From positions 1,538,501-1,602,500 of the forward strand of contig NZ_JYNQ01000001.1 of NCBI RefSeq assembly GCF_000934685.1: a stretch of 64,000 nt of DNA. The letters are read 5' to 3'. The DNA comes from Lacinutrix sp. Hel_I_90 (lineage in GTDB: Bacteria; Bacteroidota; Bacteroidia; Flavobacteriales; Flavobacteriaceae). The notes beneath the pieces are model-generated. The model made no database searches and was not told the DNA's origin. It saw only the letters and a list, made by a program, of their open reading frames with translations. Position numbers and translations under genes: made by a program. This document shows, piece by piece, positions 50,920 to 62,416 of the stretch (within the stretch, counting starts at the first letter, position 1; each line of letters opens with the position of its first letter).

Positions 50920-51729
50920 TTAATTAAAACGCCAATCCCTATAAGCACGCGATGCCTCTAATCTGTTTTCAATACTATCTTCCAATTCTGGAAAGAAATC
51001 AATGCCTGTTAATGCCTCTACCTCATCCACCGAGACTACAAATTCATATAAAGGCTTGTTTGACTCTTCATGAGCCATTAAAAAAGCAAGCAGCTTTGGT
51101 TGTCCAGAATTAGTATCAATCACGACTTTATAAAATTGATTAGGCACAGCAACTTTCTCATCGCCTATGGTTTTCATATTCCCTTTTAAAACACCTCCAG
51201 AAACCACATACACGCCATCGTATATACTCGCCCAATACCGCACTTGTTGTTCTAGCCTATTCCAAACACCAGCATTAAAATCATGAGTTTGCGGACTAAT
51301 GTTACTTGTTAAAAAGGTTTCGTCAAAAGTAAATTGACTGTATGCTCTATCTGCTGCAGGACATAAATGGCCGCGATCATAACCCGATTTTTTATAATTT
51401 CGCCAATGGGCTGCTTTGGTTTTTACAGCTTTATCCTCTTCAAAATAAGGGCGTTTAAAATTAGTGGTAGATAAATGTGCCTGCTTTAGTTCATAAGCCA
51501 CCCATTCTGCCTGTTCATGTGGCTCACTATAACTTAAACTATACCCTTCATGATGTACAATTTGCCCTGTAGTACTTGTTGGTAAAAAATAGGTGTTGGT
51601 ATCTGTTTTAGACGAAGCGCCTTCTGTTATAACTTGTTCTTCTTCTTGTTTTTCAGAGTAGAGATTATACGAATAAACAGCGATTAAAAGTAATGCTGCT
51701 AGTATGGAATACATTGTTTTTTTAGACAT
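50920..51729 (-). CDS. Secreted or anchored DNA/RNA non-specific endonuclease (NUC1 family)
   Basis: 269 residues. N-terminal hydrophobic segment (about 6-20) serves as signal or anchor. The beta-beta-alpha-metal active site YDRGHLCPAADR, the downstream N-I-S-P-Q (SNISPQTHDFNAGVWN) and VYVVSGGVL identify a Serratia-type nuclease. It is the last gene of the sigma/anti-sigma operon and its ATG overlaps the preceding stop (TAATG). It would act in the envelope or outside, in nutrient scavenging or attack on foreign DNA. Confidence 0.9.
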   Translation of the reverse strand: MSKKTMYSILAALLLIAVYSYNLYSEKQEEEQVITEGASSKTDTNTYFLPTSTTGQIVHHEGYSLSYSEPHEQAEWVAYELKQAHLSTTNFKRPYFEEDKAVKTKAAHWRNYKKSGYDRGHLCPAADRAYSQFTFDETFLTSNISPQTHDFNAGVWNRLEQQVRYWASIYDGVYVVSGGVLKGNMKTIGDEKVAVPNQFYKVVIDTNSGQPKLLAFLMAHEESNKPLYEFVVSVDEVEALTGIDFFPELEDSIENRLEASRAYRDWRFN

Positions 51730-52553
51730 TACTGCATTGCTTCTAGTATCGCTTTTGCTTTAACATGCTTATAATACTCAGGGTTAGCAGCTATAATTTC
51801 TAAGTTTTTTATAGCATTCGCTTTATCATTGCGTTTGAAATATACCAATGCTTTATACCAATACCCCTTTGAGTGATCTAAGGTTTTAGAATCTATTATT
51901 TTTTGAAAACTCTCTAAAGCGGACGTGTAATTCTCAAGCTCTAATTGTGCAATACCTAAATATAAAAGCGCATTAACATTAAAGTCTTTTTCATTCTTAA
52001 TATAAGTGCTAAAACTTTTTTCAGCTAATTTATAATCCTTGTTTGTAAACGCATTTTCACCGGTAGATAATAGCATGGCATTCGTTTCACCTCGTGATAC
52101 TAGTGATGGTAATTCGTCCCAATTACTATTTTCAACATATATCGCTTCGCTGGTAAGCGCATTGTCTTTTAAAAAGATTCCAAAAAACACAACTAAAGCC
52201 GCTGCAATAGCTAATGCAAAATATAACTTAGGTCTGATACTCGTTATGCTTTTAGATTTTTCATTCTTAAAATAGAGGTCGCCAGCATTTTTTATAGCTT
52301 TCTTTTTGTCTTGAAATTCTTTAGAAATCAATAAAGATTCTAAGGCATTCGCCTCATCATTACGCTTATCATCTGCAATAAAATCCCATGTAGCATCACC
52401 ATATTGCAAACGCATTTTTTTATTGATTGCTACCGTTTCTGCAAGATCGGGATTCTCCTTTATTTGCTTCTCGAATGCCTTCAACTGTTCAGCACGCAGG
52501 TCGCCATTAAAGTAATCCTCAATGCGTTGGAGTATGTCGTCAGAAAAATTCAT
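51729..52553 (-). CDS. Anti-sigma-like membrane protein with TPR domain
   Basis: 274 residues. N-terminal helices (about 1-70, DILQRIEDYFNGDLRAEQLKAFE) resemble the cytoplasmic anti-sigma region of Bacteroidota regulators; one membrane helix lies at about 108-127 (LYFALAIAAALVVFFGIFL); residues about 150-270 hold TPR units (AEKSFSTYIKNEKDFNVNALLYLGIA). It overlaps the sigma gene by 4 bp (ATGA). The topology suggests a membrane anti-sigma factor sensing a periplasmic partner. Confidence 0.75.
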   Translation of the reverse strand: MNFSDDILQRIEDYFNGDLRAEQLKAFEKQIKENPDLAETVAINKKMRLQYGDATWDFIADDKRNDEANALESLLISKEFQDKKKAIKNAGDLYFKNEKSKSITSIRPKLYFALAIAAALVVFFGIFLKDNALTSEAIYVENSNWDELPSLVSRGETNAMLLSTGENAFTNKDYKLAEKSFSTYIKNEKDFNVNALLYLGIAQLELENYTSALESFQKIIDSKTLDHSKGYWYKALVYFKRNDKANAIKNLEIIAANPEYYKHVKAKAILEAMQ

Positions 52554-53113
52554 ATTTCTTTTAATTCGTTAAATCTCACATCCTGCTTAATCATTTCAGT
52601 TAACTTGGCTTTGCATTTAAAAACACGTTGTCTTACCACGTTTTCATCATTGTAATCTAGTTCTATTGCAATATCCTTATAAGCGATTTTATTAAAAAAC
52701 CGTTTTAATATTTGCTTACAATTTTCAGAAATTAATTCTAATTTTTCCTGAAAGAAATCCCACCGTTCTTGTTCTAATGCAGACAAAGCGATATCGCGTG
52801 CTTCATTCTTTAGTTCCACAACACCATCAATTGTTACCTCGTGTTTTGATTTATTTAATTCTCTGCGCCATAAATTCTTACAAACTGCAAATAAATAGGC
52901 TTCAAAACTAGAGGTAATTTCAAAGGGTGCTTTTTCATACCGCAGTGTTAATTGTAGTAATGCTTTTTGAAAAACATCTTCCGCATCTGCTTGCTCACCT
53001 TTATTTTGAATCACAAAACGTTTTACATTGGGGAAACTAGTTTCATAGATATCTAAAATCTTTTTATTGTCTCCATGTAATAAGGCTTTAAGATAGGTAG
53101 ATTGGTTTTTCAT
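52550..53113 (-). CDS. RNA polymerase sigma factor, ECF type
   Basis: 187 residues from ATG 53113 (MKNQSTYLKALLHGDNKKIL); an upstream ATG at 53185 adds 24 unconserved residues across the promoter region. Region 2 (about 20-85, ADAEDVFQKALLQL and SFEAYLFAVCKNLWRRELNK) and region 4 (about 125-180, AYKDIAIELDYNDENVVRQRVFKCKAKL) are present. It is the first gene of the operon with the TPR anti-sigma and NUC1 genes, divergent from the lipoprotein-CHAT genes, which are plausible targets. Confidence 0.88.
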   Translation of the reverse strand: MKNQSTYLKALLHGDNKKILDIYETSFPNVKRFVIQNKGEQADAEDVFQKALLQLTLRYEKAPFEITSSFEAYLFAVCKNLWRRELNKSKHEVTIDGVVELKNEARDIALSALEQERWDFFQEKLELISENCKQILKRFFNKIAYKDIAIELDYNDENVVRQRVFKCKAKLTEMIKQDVRFNELKEI

Positions 53114-53145
53114 CGAATAGTTAGGTAGTATGCAAAATATAATTT

Positions 53146-53153
53146 TATATTTG
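53146..53153 (+). promoter_or_regulatory. Possible -7 element of the lipoprotein-CHAT genes
   Basis: TATATTTG matches TAnnTTTG, 60 bp before the lipoprotein ATG at 53213, in the 99-bp divergent gap with the sigma factor. The -33 position has no TTG, so a non-housekeeping sigma factor is possible. Confidence 0.4.
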
Positions 53154-53212
53154 GATGGGTAACAAATATAATTATTTAGGAACAAATAGGTATTAACATA
53201 TAAAAATTAATA

Positions 53213-53683
53213 ATGAAAACAACCACTAAATTCCTATTAGCATTAGCATTATTTTTTTCTTTATTTAATGGCTGCTCTGAAGAAGAATTATTTTTTGAAG
53301 AAGAAAAAACACAAGAAGAAAAAATCATAGAATCAACTACAAAGCGCTTACCAGCCGCTTCCAATTTTAGCACCTCCTCTGCTAGAATAATTCCTACCGA
53401 AATATGCAACTGTTTCAGCCTAATAGTCAAATATAAAGAAGGCACATCTGAAGCGCAAAAAGTATTGTATAGGAATAATTGGGCTGATTGTGTAGGGCTT
53501 ATAAATTACACCCCTCTTGATAACCAAAGGGAAGTTTGGATACTGGATTATACAATTTACAATAATAGTTCTGCACTTTGTCCAATACCTGTAGAATCTG
53601 GCGGTGGCAAAGACCTCACATTGACTGATGATCCTATTATTGACGGTATTGAGCAAGATACTGAAACAACTATTAACCCCTGA
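53213..53683 (+). CDS. Small lipoprotein of unknown function
   Basis: 156 residues, lipobox cysteine C21 (LFNGC), acidic linker, then a compact domain (about 62-115, YKEGTSEAQKVLYRNNWADC ... TPLDNQREVWILD) which reminds me of the propeptide/inhibitor domain preceding Bacteroidota S8 peptidases. Three or four further cysteines (ICNC, DC, LC) could form disulfides. Its TGA stop overlaps the CHAT start as CTGA. Possibly it regulates the neighbouring protease; that is inference. Confidence 0.6.
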   Translation: MKTTTKFLLALALFFSLFNGCSEEELFFEEEKTQEEKIIESTTKRLPAASNFSTSSARIIPTEICNCFSLIVKYKEGTSEAQKVLYRNNWADCVGLINYTPLDNQREVWILDYTIYNNSSALCPIPVESGGGKDLTLTDDPIIDGIEQDTETTINP

Positions 53684-56340
53684 AAAATATTTTAACTTAT
53701 TTATTTGTTCTTTTATTAAGCAAATCTTTTGCTCAAGAATTAAATAAAATGACTACGACTTCTCACGATAGTCTATTAATTTCATTAAAAAATAATAATA
53801 ATTTGGCTGACTATGCCAAGTTAGCGCATGATCTTTCATTTGAATATTATAAAAAAAATGATTATCCAAAAGCAATTAAATATGCCTTAGAAGAAGTTAG
53901 ATATAAGAAATACCGCAGTATTGAAAGACAAAAAAATAGCCTGTTTAACTTAGGGCTGTTTTTCTTTAAAAATGAAAACTATTCTAAATCCATAGCGGCC
54001 TATAATAAAGTTATTGATAGTTTTGAAGTTGACGAAAAAACCTATCGTGCCTATTGTGAAAATGCTAAAAATTTTCAAAAATTAGGGGATTATTATCAAG
54101 CTAAAAATTATTTTAAAAAAGGATTGAGCTACCCTGATAAAATAAGCACAAAACACCTTCCTCTAATATATTTAAATAATATCATTCTTAACCGCATAAT
54201 TGAAAGTGACGAAACTCTAAAGGAGAATGTGACGCTTTTAAAAAAAATGGATTCGCTTAATAATATAACTCCATTAAATGCATCTAACTTTTATTCCTTA
54301 AATAATGAATATGGCATTCATTACAATTCTAATAATGCTTATAATGATTACAAGAAAAGCAAATATTATCATCTAAAAGCCTTAGATGCTTCTGTTAAGA
54401 GAAAGGATTCAGCCAGGATCTCTATTTCTTCAAATAATATTGCTAAGTTATTAAATTTAGAAAAAAACGATAGTGCGCTCTATTATATAGATAAAGGTCT
54501 AAAATTTGTTAAAAAAGATGACCCCGATGTAGCAAAACTATATTTAAACCAGGCAGATTTCTTTTTTTATAAAAATAAATTAAACGCTGCTTTTAAGAGT
54601 TTAAATACGGCCTTACAGTTAACACTCCCCGTTAAAATTGACACTTCACACAGTGCTATCCCTGACTTTAGGGTTTTAAAACAATCTAATAATAAGATAC
54701 TTACTGTCCTAATTTTAAAAGAAAAATCAAGATATATACTTGAGAATAGTATTTATTCTAGAAACAAACAACTTCTTAAGATTGCATACAAAAATATAGT
54801 TCTTACAGACAGGCTCTTAGATCTAATACGCTTAGAAAGTTCAGAAAAAGAGTCTAAATTGCTTTGGCAAAAAGAAGCGTCTCAAGTCTATGCACTTGCA
54901 GTAGATGCTTGTTACAAATTAGACAAACCAAATGAGGCTTTTTATTTTATAGAGAAAAACAAGGCACTGCTGCTACTAGAAAACATAGCTGAAAATAACA
55001 TAAACAAAAGTTCGTTGGTTCCTGCAACTGTGTTACAACAAGATTTAGATTTTAAGAAAAGAATATATGCTTTAGAAAATAAAATAAGTAATAGTAACAA
55101 CACTGCTTTGCATGACAGATACTACAGCTTAAAAATTAAGTACAGAGATTTTAGAGAATCTTTGGAAAAAAAGTACCCGAGCCATTATAAATTGAGCAAA
55201 CCTTTAAACCTTTTAGGTCTGCAGAATGTAAAAAACAATTTAAAAGAAGCGACCGTCATTCTAGAATACATTTTAGATAAACACAGCAGTTATGTTTTGG
55301 CTATTTCTAAAAACGAAACAGTATTAAAAAAGCTAAACAACCATGACATTTTAAGTGAATTAGTTAATGAATACCTAACATTAATATCTAAGCCGCTTAA
55401 TAATACATTGGATCTTGAGAAACAAGAGACCACTGCGAAGCAGCTTTACGATAAATTATTTCCGTTTAAAAGCGATTCCATTTTCAAGGGTAAAACTAAA
55501 TTAGTAATCATTCCAGACTACACGCTTCAGAATTTACCATTTGAAAGTTTAAAAAACAATAAAAAATACCTCATTGAAGATTATGAAATATCTTATGCTT
55601 ATTCATTATCTTTTTTAAATTATAATAAAACTATAAAGAGAGATGCTGAACATACATTTATTGGCTTTGCACCAGAATCTTTTAATTATGATAAACTACA
55701 AACCCTGCCACGCAGTAAGATTGAAACGACTACTATTGGTAATCAATTGGATGGTTTGGTGCTATTAGATGACTCGGCTAGCAAAGAGAACTTCTTTTCT
55801 AAAGCTAAGGATTACAAAATTATACACCTCTCTACGCACGCCAATGCTAACGACTCTATTGCGCCCTGGATTGCTTTCAAGAACAGCAAGTTATATTTAA
55901 ACGAACTCTATACCACAAAAACAAAAGCTGAGTTAGTGGTATTAAATGCCTGCAACAGCTCCTTAGGCGAAATTAATAACGGCGAAGGCGTCTTTAGCTT
56001 AGCCCGCGGTTTCTTTTATTCTGGAGCGAATAGTGTGATCTCTTCACTATGGAACGTTAATGACAAATCTAATGCAGAGATTACCACCAGCTTTTATCGC
56101 TACTTAAAACAAGGCAAAACTAAAAGCGCTTCTATACGAGAAGCAAAATTAGATTATTTAAGGACACACACACTAAGTGAAGCGTCACCCTATTATTGGT
56201 CCTCTTTAATTTTAATTGGTGATGATTCTTCTATTATTTTATATAATAACTCACTGTATTTTATAGCCTTGGCTATTCTCTTCGTAATAATTATATTTTT
56301 TATTTTAAAAAAATTAAAAATCGTGGGTAACAAATCTTAG
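53680..56340 (+). CDS. TPR-CHAT caspase-like protease with signal peptide and C-terminal membrane anchor
   Basis: 886 residues from a CTG at 53680, which alone gives a signal peptide ((M)KNILTYLFVLLLSKSFAQ); ATG at 53749 would start after the cleavage site. Residues about 30-330 are TPR-like helices, about 330-520 further helices, about 580-850 the CHAT domain with histidine in IIHLSTHAN and cysteine in VVLNACNSSLGE (the caspase-like dyad), and one membrane helix near the end (FIALAILFVIIIFFIL) followed by KKLK. The protein would be periplasmic and anchored in the inner membrane. It overlaps the lipoprotein stop by 4 bp (CTGA), implying coupled translation. Substrates are unknown. Confidence 0.8.
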   Translation: MKNILTYLFVLLLSKSFAQELNKMTTTSHDSLLISLKNNNNLADYAKLAHDLSFEYYKKNDYPKAIKYALEEVRYKKYRSIERQKNSLFNLGLFFFKNENYSKSIAAYNKVIDSFEVDEKTYRAYCENAKNFQKLGDYYQAKNYFKKGLSYPDKISTKHLPLIYLNNIILNRIIESDETLKENVTLLKKMDSLNNITPLNASNFYSLNNEYGIHYNSNNAYNDYKKSKYYHLKALDASVKRKDSARISISSNNIAKLLNLEKNDSALYYIDKGLKFVKKDDPDVAKLYLNQADFFFYKNKLNAAFKSLNTALQLTLPVKIDTSHSAIPDFRVLKQSNNKILTVLILKEKSRYILENSIYSRNKQLLKIAYKNIVLTDRLLDLIRLESSEKESKLLWQKEASQVYALAVDACYKLDKPNEAFYFIEKNKALLLLENIAENNINKSSLVPATVLQQDLDFKKRIYALENKISNSNNTALHDRYYSLKIKYRDFRESLEKKYPSHYKLSKPLNLLGLQNVKNNLKEATVILEYILDKHSSYVLAISKNETVLKKLNNHDILSELVNEYLTLISKPLNNTLDLEKQETTAKQLYDKLFPFKSDSIFKGKTKLVIIPDYTLQNLPFESLKNNKKYLIEDYEISYAYSLSFLNYNKTIKRDAEHTFIGFAPESFNYDKLQTLPRSKIETTTIGNQLDGLVLLDDSASKENFFSKAKDYKIIHLSTHANANDSIAPWIAFKNSKLYLNELYTTKTKAELVVLNACNSSLGEINNGEGVFSLARGFFYSGANSVISSLWNVNDKSNAEITTSFYRYLKQGKTKSASIREAKLDYLRTHTLSEASPYYWSSLILIGDDSSIILYNNSLYFIALAILFVIIIFFILKKLKIVGNKS

Positions 56341-56381
56341 ACTTCAGGAACAATTAAGAAACTAACAAATTCTTAATCATT

Positions 56382-57998
56382 TTGAAAGACACTTTATCCT
56401 TTTTAGTACAAGCGCTGCTTCAAAACAATAAAATAAAGATTGATAGTGCAGAATTAGACTTTCAAATACAAAGTCACCCGTCTTACCCAAGTTTGCACGC
56501 CATTACAGGAGTTTTAAGTCACTTTACTATTGTGCATACTGCTATTCGCGTTCCTGTAGATAAAAACACTTTAGAACAACTTCCTGCTAGTTATATAGGA
56601 CAAATAAAAAGTGAAGATGAAACCGAATTTGCCTTTGTTATTAATAAAGGCAAAAAATATAAAATTATATATAGCAATAAAAAAAGTAAAACCATTTCTG
56701 AAGCTATTTTTTTAGAACAGTTTACAGGTGTTTTGGTTGCCGTCGAGAAAGACGAAACAAAACCTAAACAACAAGCCAGTACTGCTCATTTTCAAAACCC
56801 ACTATTCGGTATTGCCTTAGTATTATTTACAGTCTTATTTTTTAATTCTGAGCCAAGTCTTCCTGCTTCCATTTACTTTATATTATCCTTAATAGGTGTT
56901 GGAGTAAGCCTTTTAATTATACAGCATGATTTAGGATTAGACTCTAAAATTATTGATAGCATTTGTTCCCAAGAAAGTAAAACAACCAATTGTAATGCCG
57001 TTTTAAATTCTAAAGGTGCAACGCTTTACAAACACATAAAGCTTAGCGATGTCAGTCTCATTTATTTCGTTGCGATTGGTGTGTCTTCACTATTACTCAG
57101 TCTTACAAGAATACCCCTAACTACTTTATACTTAATAAGTGTGATGGCTTTACCAGTAATTATTTATTCTATATACTATCAAGTAAAGGTTTCAAAAAAC
57201 TGGTGTGTTTTATGTTTGGGCATTGTATCCATATTAATGTTTCAAGCAGTACCTTTTTTTATTACTGATGTAAATGTATCCATTTTTAGTATTGAGAGCA
57301 TTCTCTTGATTACTTTTTCGATTTTTACAATTGCTGGACTTTGGTTATTTATAAGTTCAAAATTAAAACAAGAGCAAGCGTTTAGAAAATTAAAACTAGA
57401 ATCTCATAAATTTAAAAGAAACTTTGACTTGTTCAACACCCTATTAAAACAATCTAAAACGCTAAACACTGCTTTAACCAACACTCCAGAAATCGTTTTA
57501 GGAAACACAAAAGCCGCATTAAATATTATGGTAATCACCAATCCTTTTTGCGGACACTGTAAAGGGGTACATCATTTAGTGGAATCCATTTTAAAGCAGC
57601 ATTATAATGACCTTAGTATTACAGTACGCTTTAATATAAACACCAGTAACTTAGAAAATAATGGGGTGTTGGTCTCAAGTAGATTGTTAGAACTATTCCA
57701 TACAGAAAGTGAACAAAAATGCTTAGAAGCCATGCATGAGATTTATAGTACAGGCGAGGCAAGCTCTTGGTTAGCTAAATGGGGAAAATCTGCCAATGCT
57801 AGCATCTATGGAGACATCCTCGAAGCCGAATACGCCTGGTGCTTAGATAACAATATTAATTTTACACCAGAAATCTTAATTAATGGCAAATCATACCCGC
57901 AAGCGTATGACAGAAGTGATTTAATTTATTTTATTGAAGACTTAAATGAGACTTGTTGCACAAATGCACAGACTACTCAATTACAAGATACGATATAA
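56382..57998 (+). CDS. Degenerate C39-like domain - VKOR - thioredoxin fusion (disulfide-forming)
   Basis: 538 residues, TTG start. Residues about 1-125 resemble a C39 peptidase domain without the catalytic cysteine (HPSYPSLHAITGVLSHF). Residues about 135-325 are a VKOR-like four-helix domain with active-site C275-V-L-C278 and loop cysteines C195 and C204. Residues about 355-530 are a thioredoxin-like domain with C390-G-H-C393. Such fusions reoxidise and insert disulfides in the periplasm. It sits 41 bp after the CHAT gene and just upstream of two cysteine-rich peptides and their exporter, which are its probable clients. Confidence 0.85.
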   Translation: MKDTLSFLVQALLQNNKIKIDSAELDFQIQSHPSYPSLHAITGVLSHFTIVHTAIRVPVDKNTLEQLPASYIGQIKSEDETEFAFVINKGKKYKIIYSNKKSKTISEAIFLEQFTGVLVAVEKDETKPKQQASTAHFQNPLFGIALVLFTVLFFNSEPSLPASIYFILSLIGVGVSLLIIQHDLGLDSKIIDSICSQESKTTNCNAVLNSKGATLYKHIKLSDVSLIYFVAIGVSSLLLSLTRIPLTTLYLISVMALPVIIYSIYYQVKVSKNWCVLCLGIVSILMFQAVPFFITDVNVSIFSIESILLITFSIFTIAGLWLFISSKLKQEQAFRKLKLESHKFKRNFDLFNTLLKQSKTLNTALTNTPEIVLGNTKAALNIMVITNPFCGHCKGVHHLVESILKQHYNDLSITVRFNINTSNLENNGVLVSSRLLELFHTESEQKCLEAMHEIYSTGEASSWLAKWGKSANASIYGDILEAEYAWCLDNNINFTPEILINGKSYPQAYDRSDLIYFIEDLNETCCTNAQTTQLQDTI

Positions 57999-58002
57999 AA
58001 CA

Positions 58003-58035
58003 GCAAAACCCTTATAATAAGGGTTTTGCGTTTTT
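58003..58035 (+). terminator. Terminator after the VKOR gene
   Basis: 13-bp inverted repeat GCAAAACCCTTAT / ATAAGGGTTTTGC (58003-58015, 58017-58029) then G-free T run. It separates the CHAT-VKOR transcript from the peptide gene, which starts with its own leader element. Confidence 0.8.
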
Positions 58036-58039
58036 GAAC

Positions 58040-58103
58040 AATATTCTCTCGCGAAGAATAGACACAAACTGTGAGTGTCTTTAAATGTTCACGGCAAATT
58101 TAC
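58040..58103 (+). promoter_or_regulatory. Duplicated upstream element, copy 1 (peptide 1)
   Basis: Matches 60798-60860 almost base for base over its first 47 nt. It holds two inverted repeats: ATTCT-CTCGCGA-AGAAT (58043-58059) and AGACAC-N9-GTGTCT (58060-58080). It ends 18 bp before the start of peptide 1. Probably a promoter/operator or RNA leader common to both peptides; no TAnnTTTG is inside it. Confidence 0.75.
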
Positions 58104-58121
58104 TTATTAAATAATATAATT

Positions 58122-58373
58122 ATGAAAAAATTAAAAAACTTAGGCAAAACTTTGTCTACAGCCGAACAAAAAACTATTAAAGGTGGTTGTCCAAGATGTG
58201 GACATGATCCCATTCTCATAGGTGGTGACACAGGTGGTGGCACAGGTGGCAGTGACGACACTTGTGGTTTTGCATTACTTTGTTCACCAGGAAAATGCTT
58301 TAACCCTCGTACATGCCGCTGCCAATATGGAGAAGGCGCTGGACCGAACAATAATGGAACATGTCTTTACTAA
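58122..58373 (+). CDS. Cysteine-rich double-glycine leader peptide precursor 1
   Basis: 83 residues. The leader (1-22) is MKKLKNLGKTLSTAEQKTIK followed by GG, the processing site for a C39 exporter. The predicted mature part is 61 residues: a Gly-rich stretch (33-47), then a cysteine-dense core. Cysteines at 23, 26, 48, 54, 59, 65, 67 and 81 (eight, so up to four disulfides). It resembles bacteriocin-type or pheromone precursors by leader, but the core matches none I know. An in-frame ATG at 58071 is rejected because it lies inside the repeated upstream element. Its own terminator follows. Confidence 0.88.
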   Translation: MKKLKNLGKTLSTAEQKTIKGGCPRCGHDPILIGGDTGGGTGGSDDTCGFALLCSPGKCFNPRTCRCQYGEGAGPNNNGTCLY

Positions 58374-58390
58374 AACATTATTAAAGATAG

Positions 58391-58417
58391 AAAAGGGAGG
58401 GTTTCTCTCCCTTTTTT
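58391..58417 (+). terminator. Terminator of peptide 1
   Basis: 9-bp stem AAAAGGGAG / CTCCCTTTT around a 7-nt loop, then T. It starts 18 bp after the stop of the peptide gene. Confidence 0.8.
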
Positions 58418-58471
58418 ATTAAAATTTAAAGACAAAAAAATTCTTTAGAAATACATGGCTAATTTTAGAAA

Positions 58472-58485
58472 ATTATCTAGATAAT
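58472..58485 (+). promoter_or_regulatory. 14-bp palindrome upstream of the exporter gene
   Basis: ATTATCTAGATAAT is a perfect palindrome about 80 bp before the exporter start. It could be an operator, but AT-rich palindromes of this size also occur by chance. Confidence 0.3.
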
Positions 58486-58565
58486 ACTCGCTTTTTAAGG
58501 CTTCTAAAAAAACACCTATTACTTAAAGAAAGGTATGCTTTACCACATGCTTTCCCCATAAAGAA

Positions 58566-60797
58566 ATGAAAAAATTTCCAACATATAAACAAGCAGAATC
58601 CAAAGACTGTGGTCCTACATGCCTAAAAATTATTGCAAAACATTATGGTAAAAACTTGTCAATCTCACAACTTAGAACAATAAGTGAAACCACTAGAGAA
58701 GGCAGTAACTTACTAAATTTAAGTGAGGCTAGTGAAACCATTGGCTTTCGTTCTTTAGGTGTGAAGTTAACTTTGGAAGAACTAAAAAAAGCACCTTTAC
58801 CCTGCATTTTACATTGGAATAAAGAGCATTATGTCGTCCTCTATAAAATAAAAAGCGCCTCTTCCATTTTCTCAATGGGAAAACACCAAAATGACTTAAC
58901 ATTTTATATTTCAGATCCAGGACATGGCTTAATTACCTACACAAAGGAAGAATTTTTAAAATTTTGGATTGGCAATAATGCCACCGAAAAAACACAAGAA
59001 GGCATTGCACTGCTTCTAGATCCTACACCAAAATTTTATGACAACGATTTTGGAGAAGCTGATGAAAAGAAATTTGACTTCACTTATTTATCTAAATATC
59101 TTTACAAATACAAAAAATTCATCATCCAACTTTGTATTGGCTTATTAGCAGCCAGTTTATTACAACTCCTTGTTCCTTTTTTAACACAAAGTGTTGTAGA
59201 TGTAGGCATTAAAAATCAAGATTTAAATTTTATTTATCTTATTCTATTTGCTCAAATCGCACTTTTTATTGGGAGAACAGGTATAGAAATTATTAGGAGT
59301 TGGATTTTATTACACGTTAGTGCAAGAATTAACATCTCCTTAATTTCCGATTTCTTTATTAAACTCATGCTACTTCCTATCTCCTATTTTGATGTAAAAA
59401 TGACAGGAGATTTACTACAACGTATTAACGATCACAAACGTATTCAGCAGGTTTTAACAACCTCTTCATTAAGCGTTTTGTTTTCAATGGTAAACTTCAT
59501 CATATTCAGCTTTGTACTAGTGTATTATAGCTTACAAATATTTAGTGTTTTTCTTATTGGTAGTATCCTATATTTTGTGTGGATTAAAATTTTTCTTAAA
59601 AAACGTGCCACCTTAGATTACAAACGTTTTTCTGCAGCGAGCCAAGAACAGAGTACCGTTATTGAGCTTATTAACGGCATGCAAGATATTAAGTTGCATA
59701 ATGCTGAAAGACAAAAACGTTGGGCATGGGAGCACACGCAAGCACGATTGTTTAAAGTGTCTATCAAAAGCCTAGCCTTAGAACAAACACAAAGTGTAGG
59801 CTCCTCTTTTATTAACGAACTTAAAAATATTTTTATCACCATTTTATCTGCTAAACTGGTCATAGATGGAGAGATAACTTTGGGGATGATGTTAGCGATT
59901 TCGTACATCGTAGGTCAATTAAATAGTCCTGTATCACAGCTTATTAGTTTCACTAGAGAATTACAAGATGCTAAAATCTCGCTAGACCGTTTAAGCGAAA
60001 TCCATAATATGGACAATGAAGAAGTTGATCCTCAAAACAAAATAAGAGACATTCCAAAAAGTGGTGCTATTACTATAAAAGAGGTTACGTTTAAATACAC
60101 AGGATCAGATATTGCCGTGTTAAAAGATTTAAACCTCACGATTCCAGCAAACAAAACCACCGCTATTGTTGGCACAAGTGGAAGCGGTAAAACCACCTTA
60201 ATGAAACTGCTTTTAGGCTACTACAAACCTAATCAAGGAGACCTTTTACTCAATCAATTTTCCTTACAAAATATCTCACAAAAATCCTGGAGAGACCATT
60301 ATGGTGTGGTCATGCAAGAAGGCTTTATATTTAATGATACGATTGCAAATAATATCGCTATCGGCGAAGATAGTATTGATAAAAAGCGCTTAGCACATGC
60401 TGTTGATGTAGCAAACATTAGAGATTACATCGAGTCCTTACCCCTAGCCTACAATACAAAAATAGGGGCAGAAGGCACTGGCTTAAGTACGGGACAAAAA
60501 CAACGTTTATTTATTGCAAGAGCCGTTTACAAAAACCCCGATTATTTGTTTTTTGATGAAGCAACCTCCGCTTTAGACGCTAATAACGAAAAAGTAATCA
60601 TGGAAAACTTAGATACCTTCTTTAAAGACAAAACAGTAGTCGTTATTGCTCACCGTTTAAGTACGGTAAAAAATGCCCATCAAATAGTCGTCTTAGATGA
60701 TGGAAAAATAGCTGAAATAGGAAACCATAAAGCATTAGTTGCTAAAAAAGGAAACTATTACAACCTGGTTAAAAATCAATTGGAATTGGGTAACTAA
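58566..60797 (+). CDS. Peptidase-containing ABC exporter (C39 type)
   Basis: 743 residues with three domains. C39 peptidase (1-140): C15 in DCGPTC, H88 in KEHYVVLY, D117 in SDPGHG, a complete catalytic set. Six-helix membrane domain (about 165-450). ABC domain (about 505-740): Walker A GTSGSGKTT at 536-544, signature LSTGQ at 640-644, Walker B LFFDEATSALD near 662-671. It cleaves the leader after Gly-Gly during export. It lies between the two peptide genes and upstream of its HlyD adaptor; outer membrane passage would need a TolC-like protein elsewhere. Confidence 0.95.
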   Translation: MKKFPTYKQAESKDCGPTCLKIIAKHYGKNLSISQLRTISETTREGSNLLNLSEASETIGFRSLGVKLTLEELKKAPLPCILHWNKEHYVVLYKIKSASSIFSMGKHQNDLTFYISDPGHGLITYTKEEFLKFWIGNNATEKTQEGIALLLDPTPKFYDNDFGEADEKKFDFTYLSKYLYKYKKFIIQLCIGLLAASLLQLLVPFLTQSVVDVGIKNQDLNFIYLILFAQIALFIGRTGIEIIRSWILLHVSARINISLISDFFIKLMLLPISYFDVKMTGDLLQRINDHKRIQQVLTTSSLSVLFSMVNFIIFSFVLVYYSLQIFSVFLIGSILYFVWIKIFLKKRATLDYKRFSAASQEQSTVIELINGMQDIKLHNAERQKRWAWEHTQARLFKVSIKSLALEQTQSVGSSFINELKNIFITILSAKLVIDGEITLGMMLAISYIVGQLNSPVSQLISFTRELQDAKISLDRLSEIHNMDNEEVDPQNKIRDIPKSGAITIKEVTFKYTGSDIAVLKDLNLTIPANKTTAIVGTSGSGKTTLMKLLLGYYKPNQGDLLLNQFSLQNISQKSWRDHYGVVMQEGFIFNDTIANNIAIGEDSIDKKRLAHAVDVANIRDYIESLPLAYNTKIGAEGTGLSTGQKQRLFIARAVYKNPDYLFFDEATSALDANNEKVIMENLDTFFKDKTVVVIAHRLSTVKNAHQIVVLDDGKIAEIGNHKALVAKKGNYYNLVKNQLELGN

Positions 60798-60860
60798 AAT
60801 ATTCTCTCGCGAGGAATAGACACAAACTGCGAGTGTCTCAAAATGTTTGCAGCTTTTTAC
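60798..60860 (+). promoter_or_regulatory. Duplicated upstream element, copy 2 (peptide 2)
   Basis: Second copy of the element at 58040-58103, starting at the stop codon of the exporter gene. The first inverted repeat is compensated to ATTC-T-CTCGCGAG-GAAT (60801-60817) and the second AGACAC/GTGTCT is unchanged (60818-60838), so structure is conserved more than sequence. Confidence 0.75.
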
Positions 60861-60878
60861 ATTTAAAATAATTAAAAA

Positions 60879-61049
60879 ATGAAAAATTTAAAAAACTTAG
60901 GAAAAGCCTTAACCAAAGTTGAGCAAAGGAGTATTAATGGAGGCGTATTTGCCTGTGGAGGTGGACACCAATGCCCTCCTGGATGGACCTGTCCATACGA
61001 TTATAGAACAGGGACTAACTGGGCTTGCCAAAGATCTTTAGAACTGTAG
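60879..61049 (+). CDS. Cysteine-rich double-glycine leader peptide precursor 2
   Basis: 56 residues, below the usual gene-calling length. The leader is MKNLKNLGKALTKVEQRSIN then GG at 21-22, same length as in peptide 1 with 14 of 22 residues identical. The predicted 34-residue mature part has four cysteines (26, 32, 38, 50) and is rich in Gly, Pro and aromatic residues (GWTCPYDY, NWAC). It lies between the exporter and HlyD genes, with its own copy of the upstream element and its own terminator. Very probably a second exported disulfide-bonded peptide. Confidence 0.88.
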   Translation: MKNLKNLGKALTKVEQRSINGGVFACGGGHQCPPGWTCPYDYRTGTNWACQRSLEL

Positions 61050-61068
61050 ACTAGCCTATCAATATTTT

Positions 61069-61104
61069 GTGCAATGCCAGTATAAGGCATTGCACTTATG
61101 TTTA
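61069..61104 (+). terminator. Terminator of peptide 2
   Basis: Perfect 10-bp stem GTGCAATGCC / GGCATTGCAC (61069-61078, 61086-61095) with loop AGTATAA, followed by a T-rich but interrupted tract. Some read-through into the HlyD gene is likely. Confidence 0.7.
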
Positions 61105-61123
61105 TATAATCTTATAGAATCTC

Positions 61124-62416
61124 ATGATGTCAAAAAAACTAGAAGAAATAGAATTACGAAGTGAGCAGGTACAAGATATTTTATCTTATGTCCCGCATTG
61201 GATGATACGCTATGGTAATCTGGTGTTTTTACTATTAATCATGCTATTTTTAGCCTTATCTTTCTTTATTAAATATCCAGATGTTATTAATGCAGAAGCC
61301 TTAGTTACCACCAAAATCCCCCCTCAAAAAGAGTATGCAAAAATAACCAGTCGTATTCAGGCTATTTTAGTTGAAGACAACACTATAGTTTCTCCAAACA
61401 CACCTTTGGCCATATTAGAGAACACCGCCAATTACAAAGACGTGTTTTTACTTAAGAGCATCTTAGATAGCATTAAACCAAATACGCAATTGTTTTACTT
61501 CCCAATCAATGAAATCCCGCTATTATTTTTAGGCAACATAGATAATGATTTTGCTATTTTCGAAAATAATTACACGCAATATGTACTGAATAAAGAATTA
61601 CAACCTTTTTCTAATGAAGCTTTAGCCAATAAAACAACCTTATCTGAATTATATAGCAGATTAGCCAATTCTAAGTCGCAATTAGAAATCAATCGCGCTG
61701 AACTAGCCTTTAAAAAGAATAAATTAGAAAGAAATAAAACACTTTATAAAAAAGGAATCATTGCCAAATTAGAGTACGAAAATAATCAAATAGAATATGC
61801 TCAGGCCCAGCGAAATCTCAAAAGTTTCGAAGCCTCTATTTCACAAATAAGAGAATCTATTAGTAACGCTAATAAAACGAGTAAAGGCAATAAAATCAAT
61901 AACACTCGGGAAGAAATCAAACTTTTAAAGAATGTCTTACAATCCTTCAATCAATTAAAAATTGCTGTAAAAGACTGGGAGAACACACATGTACTAAGCT
62001 CCAAATTAAATGGAAAAGTATCGTTCATGAACTTTAAAACCGTTAATGAAACGCTTAATGCCGGTGATTTAGTGTTTACTATCATTCCAAATACCAACTT
62101 AGAATATATCGCGAAATTAAAAACACCCATTCTAAACTCTGGCAAATTAAAAACAGGGCAGGCAGTAAATATTAGTATAGAAAACTATCCAGAAACTGAA
62201 TTTGGATTTTTAACTGGAACTATTCATAAAATCTCTGCTATCCCCGATGATGAGGGCTTTTATTTAATAGAGGTCAAACTACCTAATCACTTGGTTACCT
62301 CCTACAATAAAGAAATAGAATTCAAGCAGGAAATGCGTGGTAACGCCGAAATTATTACTGAAGACCTTCGTTTGGCAGAACGCTTCTTTTATCAAATTAA
62401 AGACATCTTTAAATAA
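61124..62416 (+). CDS. HlyD-family membrane fusion protein
   Basis: 430 residues from ATG 61124 (the next codon is also ATG). One membrane helix at about 32-50 (LVFLLLIMLFLALSFFI), a biotinyl-lipoyl-like half before and after a long coiled-coil hairpin (about 175-280, ELAFKKNKLERNKTLYKKGI), and a beta-barrel domain (PETEFGFLTGTIHKI). It is the periplasmic adaptor of the C39 exporter. It lies 74 bp after peptide 2 and ends the plus-strand locus at a bidirectional terminator. Confidence 0.92.
   Translation: MMSKKLEEIELRSEQVQDILSYVPHWMIRYGNLVFLLLIMLFLALSFFIKYPDVINAEALVTTKIPPQKEYAKITSRIQAILVEDNTIVSPNTPLAILENTANYKDVFLLKSILDSIKPNTQLFYFPINEIPLLFLGNIDNDFAIFENNYTQYVLNKELQPFSNEALANKTTLSELYSRLANSKSQLEINRAELAFKKNKLERNKTLYKKGIIAKLEYENNQIEYAQAQRNLKSFEASISQIRESISNANKTSKGNKINNTREEIKLLKNVLQSFNQLKIAVKDWENTHVLSSKLNGKVSFMNFKTVNETLNAGDLVFTIIPNTNLEYIAKLKTPILNSGKLKTGQAVNISIENYPETEFGFLTGTIHKISAIPDDEGFYLIEVKLPNHLVTSYNKEIEFKQEMRGNAEIITEDLRLAERFFYQIKDIFK

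Follow-up and report, generated by a model that had tools for sequence, protein, structure and literature searches.

Two described systems appear, by analogy, to be the closest functional parallels to the locus that we describe here. The locus is a set of genes, promoter-like boxes and RNA elements in a 64,000 nucleotide (nt) stretch of the Lacinutrix sp. Hel_I_90 genome (contig NZ_JYNQ01000001.1, positions 1,538,501 to 1,602,500; hereafter the window). As far as the available parts of the two sources describe them, the bacteroidetocins offer the parallel for how peptide, oxidase and exporter are combined, and the Csx29/Csx30/CASP-sigma system the parallel for a CHAT protease coupled to a sigma factor. 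Bacteroidetocins are four-cysteine peptides of Bacteroidota with a double-glycine (GG) leader, encoded with a peptidase-containing ABC exporter, as in our locus. They are proposed class IIf bacteriocins, and most of their regions encode a thiol oxidoreductase to which disulfide formation is ascribed (PMC6671954). Their leaders have 15 residues compared to 22 here, and by leader length our peptides fall outside the group (PMC6671954). The bacteroidetocin regions also encode a conserved protein with five transmembrane segments. Unlike what we find here, that text makes no mention of VKOR, thioredoxin or HlyD, and its available part describes neither a CHAT/sigma module nor an RNA element (PMC6671954).

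Csx29, a tetratricopeptide repeat (TPR)-CHAT protein, relieves the inhibition of an extracytoplasmic function (ECF)-type sigma factor (PMC10028731). In CASP (Csx29/Csx30/CASP-sigma, type III-E CRISPR), as in our locus, a TPR-CHAT protein is linked to an ECF-like sigma factor and an inhibitor, here a putative one. Sigma motifs within the CASP locus point to autoregulation, and within-locus boxes are found here too. The differences, judged from the excerpted source, are that the CASP CHAT is RNA-activated with Cas7-11, whereas the one here has a signal-peptide-like start and a candidate membrane anchor, and that the inhibitor here is a predicted membrane protein with periplasmic TPRs (PMC10028731).

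The single components have relatives as well. The exporter is like the PCAT exporters (e.g., PCAT1) in its C39 domain with Q, C, H and D, GG cleavage site and ABC core, but the system here is a Gram-negative form with HlyD and carries an extra, Cys-less C39-like domain on its oxidase. VKOR-thioredoxin fusions (PF07884) share the four VKOR cysteines and the thioredoxin CxxC, but here the fusion is tied to leader peptides by its genomic context and its N-terminal C39-like domain. CDD has a group of VKOR proteins that are joined to a cysteine-peptidase-like domain. Among RNAs, preQ1-I, SAM-II and SAM-V are small regulatory H-type pseudoknots in mRNA leaders. Our element is similarly compact and similarly placed, but has no Rfam match and stands mostly before leader-peptide open reading frames (ORFs) at a near-fixed distance. 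We found no description of the gene set or of the RNA element among the matches listed (titles, abstract starts) for the open-licence PMC literature.

On balance, and with moderate confidence, we read the locus as a production line that makes disulfide-rich peptides for secretion, is inducible and is switched by a CHAT/sigma module, the products being most likely bacteriocins against related Bacteroidota. We are far more certain of the RNA structure and of the linkage of CHAT, sigma and VKOR than of the role of the peptides as bacteriocins, the substrate of the protease or what the RNA does. An earlier note on this DNA had listed a lipoprotein, a CHAT protease, a VKOR fusion, two peptides, an exporter and an HlyD adaptor. 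All six kinds of gene are present in the window DNA where that note placed them, with the domains it named (Pfam/NCBIfam scans; Pfam finds HlyD, VKOR, thioredoxin and CHAT). The locus extends further left than the note had it, to a divergent ECF sigma factor and a one-helix TPR membrane protein. This sigma/anti-sigma pair, two promoter-like boxes and two RNA elements had been overlooked. The features are as follows.

51729..52553, minus strand: membrane protein read as an anti-sigma factor (role from context), with cytosolic N-terminus, helix at about 106-128 and periplasmic TPRs (Pfam, hydropathy)
52550..53185, minus strand: ECF sigma factor, true start perhaps ATG 53113 (Pfam Sigma70_r2; NCBIfam sigma70-ECF 49.6 bits)
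53157..53183, plus strand: ECF-type promoter-like box GGGTAACA-N15-GAAC before lip-CHAT (motif comparison)
53213..53683, plus strand: LIP, a small variable lipoprotein with a C-terminal domain predicted as beta-alpha-beta-beta-alpha-beta
53680..56340, plus strand: TPR-CHAT protease with signal-peptide-like start (putative CTG) and C-terminal hydrophobic helix (CHAT 185 bits; alignment; hydropathy)
56325..56351, plus strand: ECF-type promoter-like box before VKOR, overlapping the end of the CHAT gene (motif comparison)
56382..57998, plus strand: fusion of a C39-like domain (no conserved Cys), VKOR and a DsbA-type thioredoxin, TTG start (Pfam, alignment, predicted structure)
58003..58029, plus strand: hairpin after the VKOR stop, before RNA element 1 (by eye)
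58033..58095, plus strand: RNA element 1, hairpin P1 plus H-type pseudoknot; stem A 58060-65/58075-80, stem B 58069-74/58089-94
58122..58373, plus strand: double-glycine peptide 1, 22-residue leader, 61-residue core, 8 Cys
58566..60797, plus strand: C39 peptidase-containing ABC exporter (Pfam/NCBIfam)
60791..60853, plus strand: RNA element 2, beginning at the exporter stop; stem A 60818-23/60833-38, stem B 60827-32/60847-52
60879..61049, plus strand: double-glycine peptide 2, 22-residue leader, 34-residue core, 4 Cys
61124..62416, plus strand: HlyD-type periplasmic adaptor (Pfam/NCBIfam)

Peptides, oxidase and exporter

Two sets of loci were compared. The first comprises 51 stretches, up to 20 kb each, around the VKOR fusions of same-family genomes; the family of this 299-genome set was taken as Flavobacteriaceae because the nearest named relatives belong there. 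The second comprises 68 named loci from GTDB contigs scanned with short VKOR-protein motifs, chiefly from Lacinutrix, Bizionia, Tenacibaculum, Aquimarina and Winogradskyella, but also from Lutibacter, Dokdonia, Flavobacterium, Roseivirga and a few others. The combined 97 VKOR rows include two same-sequence pairs met in both sets (L034/L191 and L045/L239). Alignments were made of 49 of 53 VKOR proteins, 68 of 84 peptides and 22 selected CHAT proteins.

The C39-like/VKOR/DsbA fusion is encoded in 40/299 same-family genomes. A C39 exporter homologue (at least 500 bits) accompanies it at 34/52 and 48/68 loci of the two sets, and HlyD (at least 100 bits) at 35/52 and 44/68. The gene order that the earlier note had suggested looking for is seen again in other genera. 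Since it recurs there, and since the fusion is single copy in the window's genome and found at this locus only, the arrangement is more than chance. By these comparisons the gene set is a conserved system, which supports a locus for making, oxidizing and exporting disulfide-rich peptides, as had been proposed.

The oxidase scores 52 bits against PF07884 (cut-off 27.5). Its VKOR cysteines C195, C204, C275 and C278 and the thioredoxin cysteines C390 and C393 are invariant in the 49 aligned proteins. The description of the protein as a VKOR-thioredoxin fusion is correct but incomplete, as there is also an N-terminal domain related to Peptidase_C39. This Pfam family is matched at E 0.01 in 41/49 aligned proteins; the window's own protein, at 20.6 bits, falls just below the 22-bit cut-off. 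Profile comparison of the domain with the C39 domain of the exporters gave a probability of 97.6, and the predicted structure of the fusion (mean pLDDT, predicted local distance difference test, 90.4) matches both DsbA-type proteins and the C39 exporter PCAT1. No conserved Cys was found in the domain in 120 sequences, and the profile match begins after the Cys segment. Judged by sequence, the domain is a non-catalytic Peptidase C39-like domain; it is a putative leader-docking module that would keep the precursor near the oxidase. An oxidase built in this way suggests leader-guided disulfide formation coupled to export, and would help in the production of disulfide-rich peptides.

The two peptides carry 8 and 4 cysteines, as the earlier note had it. 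Both leaders, of 22 residues, end in GG and precede cores of 61 and 34 residues, and both genes adjoin the C39 exporter gene. The exporter does have the complete set of catalytic residues that the earlier note saw in it: Q9, C15, H88 and D117, which we take to be the C39 catalytic residues, are present and are invariant in 79/79 exporters compared, the window's own included. In the first set, a script covering the 9.5 kb downstream of VKOR picked 84 leader peptides with at least 2 Cys in the core, and the number of core Cys is even in 73 of them. Within a locus, leaders are 66% identical and cores 22%, compared to 45% and 21% for random pairs. Leaders that are kept while cores diversify are the pattern expected of bacteriocin-like effectors, and the peptides are probably bacteriocins. 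Curated bacteriocin and ribosomally synthesized and post-translationally modified peptide (RiPP) precursor families match peptide 1 only below their cut-offs (Bacteroid_pep 16.3 vs 25 bits; leader_Chryseo 12.9 vs 23.5 bits) and peptide 2 not at all. Any one such family matches at most 4 of the 68 aligned peptides, the window's two included, at E 0.01. Outer-membrane efflux proteins are encoded in the window's genome.

The CHAT-sigma module

The CHAT protein scores 185 bits against PF12770 (cut-off 24). Its residues H716, H720 and C758 are invariant in the 22 aligned sequences, and H720 and C758 are presumably the CHAT His/Cys dyad. The gene reads in frame from CTG 53680, overlapping the lipoprotein stop. 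This putative start codon adds a signal-peptide-like stretch, and a signal peptide would fit the MxKxxxxxFxxLxxxxxxxQ with which the consensus of the 22 homologues begins. At 858-876 a hydrophobic helix could anchor the C-terminus (hydropathy). This start and this helix together predict a periplasmic location for both the TPR and the CHAT domains. The protein encoded at 51729-52553 is a likely membrane anti-sigma factor, given its pairing with the ECF sigma gene, its topology and the conservation of the pair.

LIP has the same order of secondary structure as the inhibitor I9/subtilisin propeptide fold, a likeness of topology that is suggestive only. Chains of I9 type are among its weak Foldseek matches (E 0.17-0.7), and other ferredoxin-like folds fill the VIA list.

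The link between CHAT and VKOR that the earlier note had drawn is real. CHAT lies directly upstream of VKOR at 6/52 and 21/68 loci (27/97 VKOR rows), in records of Lacinutrix, Bizionia, Winogradskyella, Aquimarina, Tenacibaculum, Lutibacter and Roseivirga. The note had held that relatives in which CHAT and VKOR are never near the peptides and exporter would speak against it, and this is not what we see. A divergent ECF sigma gene is present at 24/27 CHAT-VKOR loci; the remaining three are cut by contig ends, and thus the gene is found at 24/24 uncut loci. The locus provides a natural setting for CHAT proteases, in which a predicted periplasmic protease is joined by an ECF sigma/anti-sigma couple and a promoter-like box and has one clear substrate candidate.

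The gene upstream of VKOR is not always CHAT. The 97 rows were labeled CHAT (27), LuxR-like (17), LytTR (5) or none (48). The LuxR label was given by eye, and in the protein scanned only the receiver domain has Pfam support; the LytTR type is confirmed. The scanned LytTR regulator and its partner, a TPR histidine kinase, are two-component proteins by Pfam, as are the scanned receiver-domain protein and the HisKA_3 kinase of the LuxR-like type. On the VKOR tree (97 proteins, FastTree, with some long branches and the two duplicate rows) the labels need 23 changes, and CHAT status taken by itself needs at least 14 on well-supported branches. Since the CHAT, LuxR-like and LytTR modules occupy the same place, the slot upstream of VKOR holds interchangeable regulators.

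Regulatory modules also stand beside peptide genes in quorum-sensed bacteriocin operons. The three kinds of module at one place would suit a pheromone circuit in which the peptides are signals, with the CHAT/sigma module as their sensor here and two-component systems as sensors in sister loci. We consider this unlikely, as 17 elements in one genome (G059) and unrelated cores are unlike one ligand, and no cognate receptor was identified.

The earlier note had also supposed that CHAT might process the peptides or provide immunity. CHAT would then trim the peptides, destroy those that diffuse back or respond to them as an effector, with the sigma pair controlling only the expression of CHAT. The predicted periplasmic location, where the peptides pass, agrees with such a role, and in L136 and L130 CHAT adjoins a peptide gene tagged by the RNA element with no VKOR within the 12 kb examined. 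However, 70/97 VKOR rows are without CHAT, Bizionia echini included (L191, the same sequence as L034), where the module is absent and the flanking genes are kept, and the slot is elsewhere filled by two-component regulators. Hypervariable cores are also a poor substrate set for a single protease. Finally, the Lacinutrix genome itself carries a second set of sigma-like, anti-sigma-like (by eye), CHAT and lipoprotein genes (L088, C1 at about 3.12 Mb), with no VKOR, exporter, HlyD or RNA-element match in its surroundings. Direct action of CHAT on the peptides is thus quite unlikely. CHAT is better read as a signal-transduction protease than as a peptide processor or immunity factor, given the regulators in its slot elsewhere, its ECF sigma companion, the boxes before lip-CHAT and VKOR, and the L088 set. 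Because that set is without peptide-export matches, CHAT-sigma modules may be general in flavobacteria.

In Lacinutrix neustonica (L190) several CHAT pieces and two lipoprotein genes stand in a row, which suggests duplication and decay of the module. A reading of the locus as a defense system was dropped, as PADLOC gave zero matches at E 0.001 for LIP, CHAT, VKOR, anti-sigma and sigma, no search for cas genes having been made.

The pseudoknot RNA element

The sequence AATAGACACAAACTGYGAGTGTC precedes both window peptides and, with up to 3 mismatches allowed, has no other match in the genome. It lies in an element that consists of a short hairpin, P1, followed by stem A (AGACAC/GTGTCT). Stem B forms between the loop of stem A and a segment that lies 6-10 nt further downstream. 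The window's two copies end 26-27 nt before the peptide ATG and differ from each other by a two-sided change in stem B. Comparison of the elements of many loci gives the fold as a hairpin plus an H-type pseudoknot. In a first alignment (A1), the 84 peptide upstreams yielded 55 distinct elements passing a script filter for both stems, of which four were removed by hand. Changes on both sides are seen at 15/17 pairs of its 51 rows, and 108 cells are doubly changed compared to 33 in shuffles; the pairing percentages of this alignment are inflated, as its rows were selected for both stems. The second alignment (A2) is a fairer test, though many of its rows come from related loci. It takes the best 150 of 188 matches of a covariance model without stem B, and one of the 150 is identical to an A1 row. 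In its 144 distinct elements stem B is paired in 97.2% of cells with two-sided changes at 6/6 pairs, and the whole structure is 95.1% paired, compared to 35-58% after sliding the partners.

There is no match above gathering thresholds in Rfam 15 for the window at 50-64 kb and four relatives, and matches in a permissive scan of element 1 were all far below thresholds. The element model has matches at E 0.01 in 43/299 same-family genomes. In a phylum draw, 13/395 genomes have a match at E 0.001, two of them outside the family, and in an order draw 12/196, four of them outside; the strict filters of these genome searches lose weak matches.

The element is coupled to leader peptides. A strict leader ORF lies 12-50 nt downstream of 128/150 aligned elements from the named loci compared to 186/20000 random positions, which themselves include true peptide genes. 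The distance from model end to ATG is 26.1 +/- 2.0 nt and the orientation is single in these 150. Of the 22 that fail the strict pattern, 13 have by eye a leader with GS, GQ, GK, GG or a GTG start, eight have none and one meets a contig end. At 48 further places outside the VKOR stretches, which are the stronger model matches, the element precedes a leader peptide recognizable by eye in 44, though some of these peptides are truncated, one is without Cys and some have GS, GY, GA or GD instead of GG. The four others are the second element of L131, L148, L157 and L158. The element therefore tags peptide genes scattered over the genome. A strongly covarying RNA without an Rfam match can thus predict from DNA which small flavobacterial ORFs are exported peptides, even far from VKOR loci. 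Given the narrow spacing to the ATG, the element would act in translation initiation or cistron-specific stability rather than in transcription termination. The second window element begins at the exporter stop codon and is therefore probably inside a polycistronic message.

The element could instead be a DNA operator or recombination site. Stem A is a short inverted repeat, and near-identical elements at several peptide genes could favor cassette shuffling. Single-sequence folding of the stretches with the window elements agrees with this in giving no excess stability (z -0.14 and -0.27), though the method is blind to pseudoknots. The two-sided changes in crossing helix B, which the search model ignored, and the single orientation with narrow spacing make a DNA site very unlikely.

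Several further element loci depart from the pattern. L131 also contains a VKOR match. In L148 (G045) the element lies downstream of CHAT, behind a GGGTAACA...GAAC box, and before a 175-residue Cys-containing lipoprotein rather than a leader peptide. L262, from another family, has an element before a secreted-looking ORF. A shortened element with most of the pseudoknot loop gone stands before the VKOR gene itself in L180 (G131). L122 (G107 C8, about 1.151 Mb) is an apparent decayed locus, in which an element-tagged peptide comes just after a VKOR remnant interrupted by an internal stop. The leaders of tagged peptides end in GS, GQ or GK rather than GG in Tenacibaculum (L203, L211, L213, L214, L221, L231, L238, L240 and L249) and Roseivirga (L235). 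Several relatives have a hairpin of different sequence, often without a T-run, at the place of the 58003-58029 hairpin, which by eye is not an obvious terminator.

Promoter-like boxes and the proposed pathway

Comparison of the divergent gaps between sigma and LIP gave GGGTAACA, a spacer of about 15 nt and GAAC. The pattern GGGTAA[CG]-N13-18-GAAC occurs 39 times in the 52 + 68 loci compared to 3 in shuffled sequence; VKOR follows 17 of the 39 and a LIP-type ORF 16, with the start almost always 48-63 nt away. Between 130 nt upstream of the VKOR start and 30 nt inside the gene, GGGTAA is found in 25/27 CHAT rows and 2/70 others (Fisher p=1e-18, which overstates the case as the rows are related), and the strict form in 16/27 and 1/70. 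Of the two exceptions, L234 is a contig of 3.4 kb that ends a short way upstream. It is chiefly this presence of the box where the sigma gene is present that suggests control of VKOR and the genes behind it by the sigma/CHAT module. That CHAT/sigma is an unrelated hitchhiking neighbor, for which one could cite the commonness of CHAT homologues (129/299 same-family genomes at E 1e-20) and the lack of CHAT at most VKOR loci, is scarcely credible when the box before VKOR is almost confined to CHAT rows and the order has stayed constant while the link was gained or lost repeatedly on the VKOR tree.

In the pathway that we favor, an envelope signal would activate the periplasmic, membrane-anchored CHAT, perhaps via the lipoprotein. 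CHAT would cut the periplasmic part of the TPR anti-sigma factor and so free the ECF sigma factor, which would fire two boxes, one for lip-CHAT (feedback) and the other for VKOR and the peptide and exporter genes behind it. The pseudoknotted leader RNA of each peptide ORF would most simply set the ribosome loading or stability of its cistron. The conserved leader would dock on the C39 domain of the exporter and be cut after GG. Its probable second docking site, the C39-like domain of the VKOR fusion, is catalytically dead; docking there would bring the VKOR/DsbA oxidase up to the exit, and the disulfides would be made at that point, before release through HlyD and a TolC-like channel. More tentatively, and with less confidence than doubt, we suggest that the pseudoknots are an undescribed leader family, a shared tag of a dispersed repertoire of disulfide-rich peptides (one genome has 17 elements) that gates its translation in step with the dedicated exporter and oxidase, and that the periplasmic, caspase-like CHAT acts as site-1 protease in the ECF sigma pathway by which this repertoire is switched on. 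Peptides marked by an RNA would then be controlled by a caspase-type signaling cascade of the envelope.

Several observations weigh against the production line as we have drawn it. The boxes are promoter-like motifs rather than mapped starts. Shared ancestry of the CHAT-VKOR junction could explain part of the box excess before VKOR. In the window's genome the loose pattern GGGTAACN{14,18}GAAC has six matches compared to nine in a reversed control, though of the six only the two of this locus read GGGTAACA. The flavobacterial promoter motif is TAnnTTTG; upstream of 40 further elements it was seen 5 times with 3.5 expected, at no common promoter position. No regulator was recognized upstream in the 48 VKOR rows labeled none, and in the stretches examined there is no C39 exporter at 8/27 CHAT-VKOR loci (L052, L057, L212, L218, L225, L229, L192 and L204, the last two being short contigs). 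No immunity gene was identified at the locus.

In three of these loci, L212, L225 and L229, a GGGTAACA...GAAC match on the minus strand lies 286 nt before the anti-sigma gene, apparently within the sigma gene.

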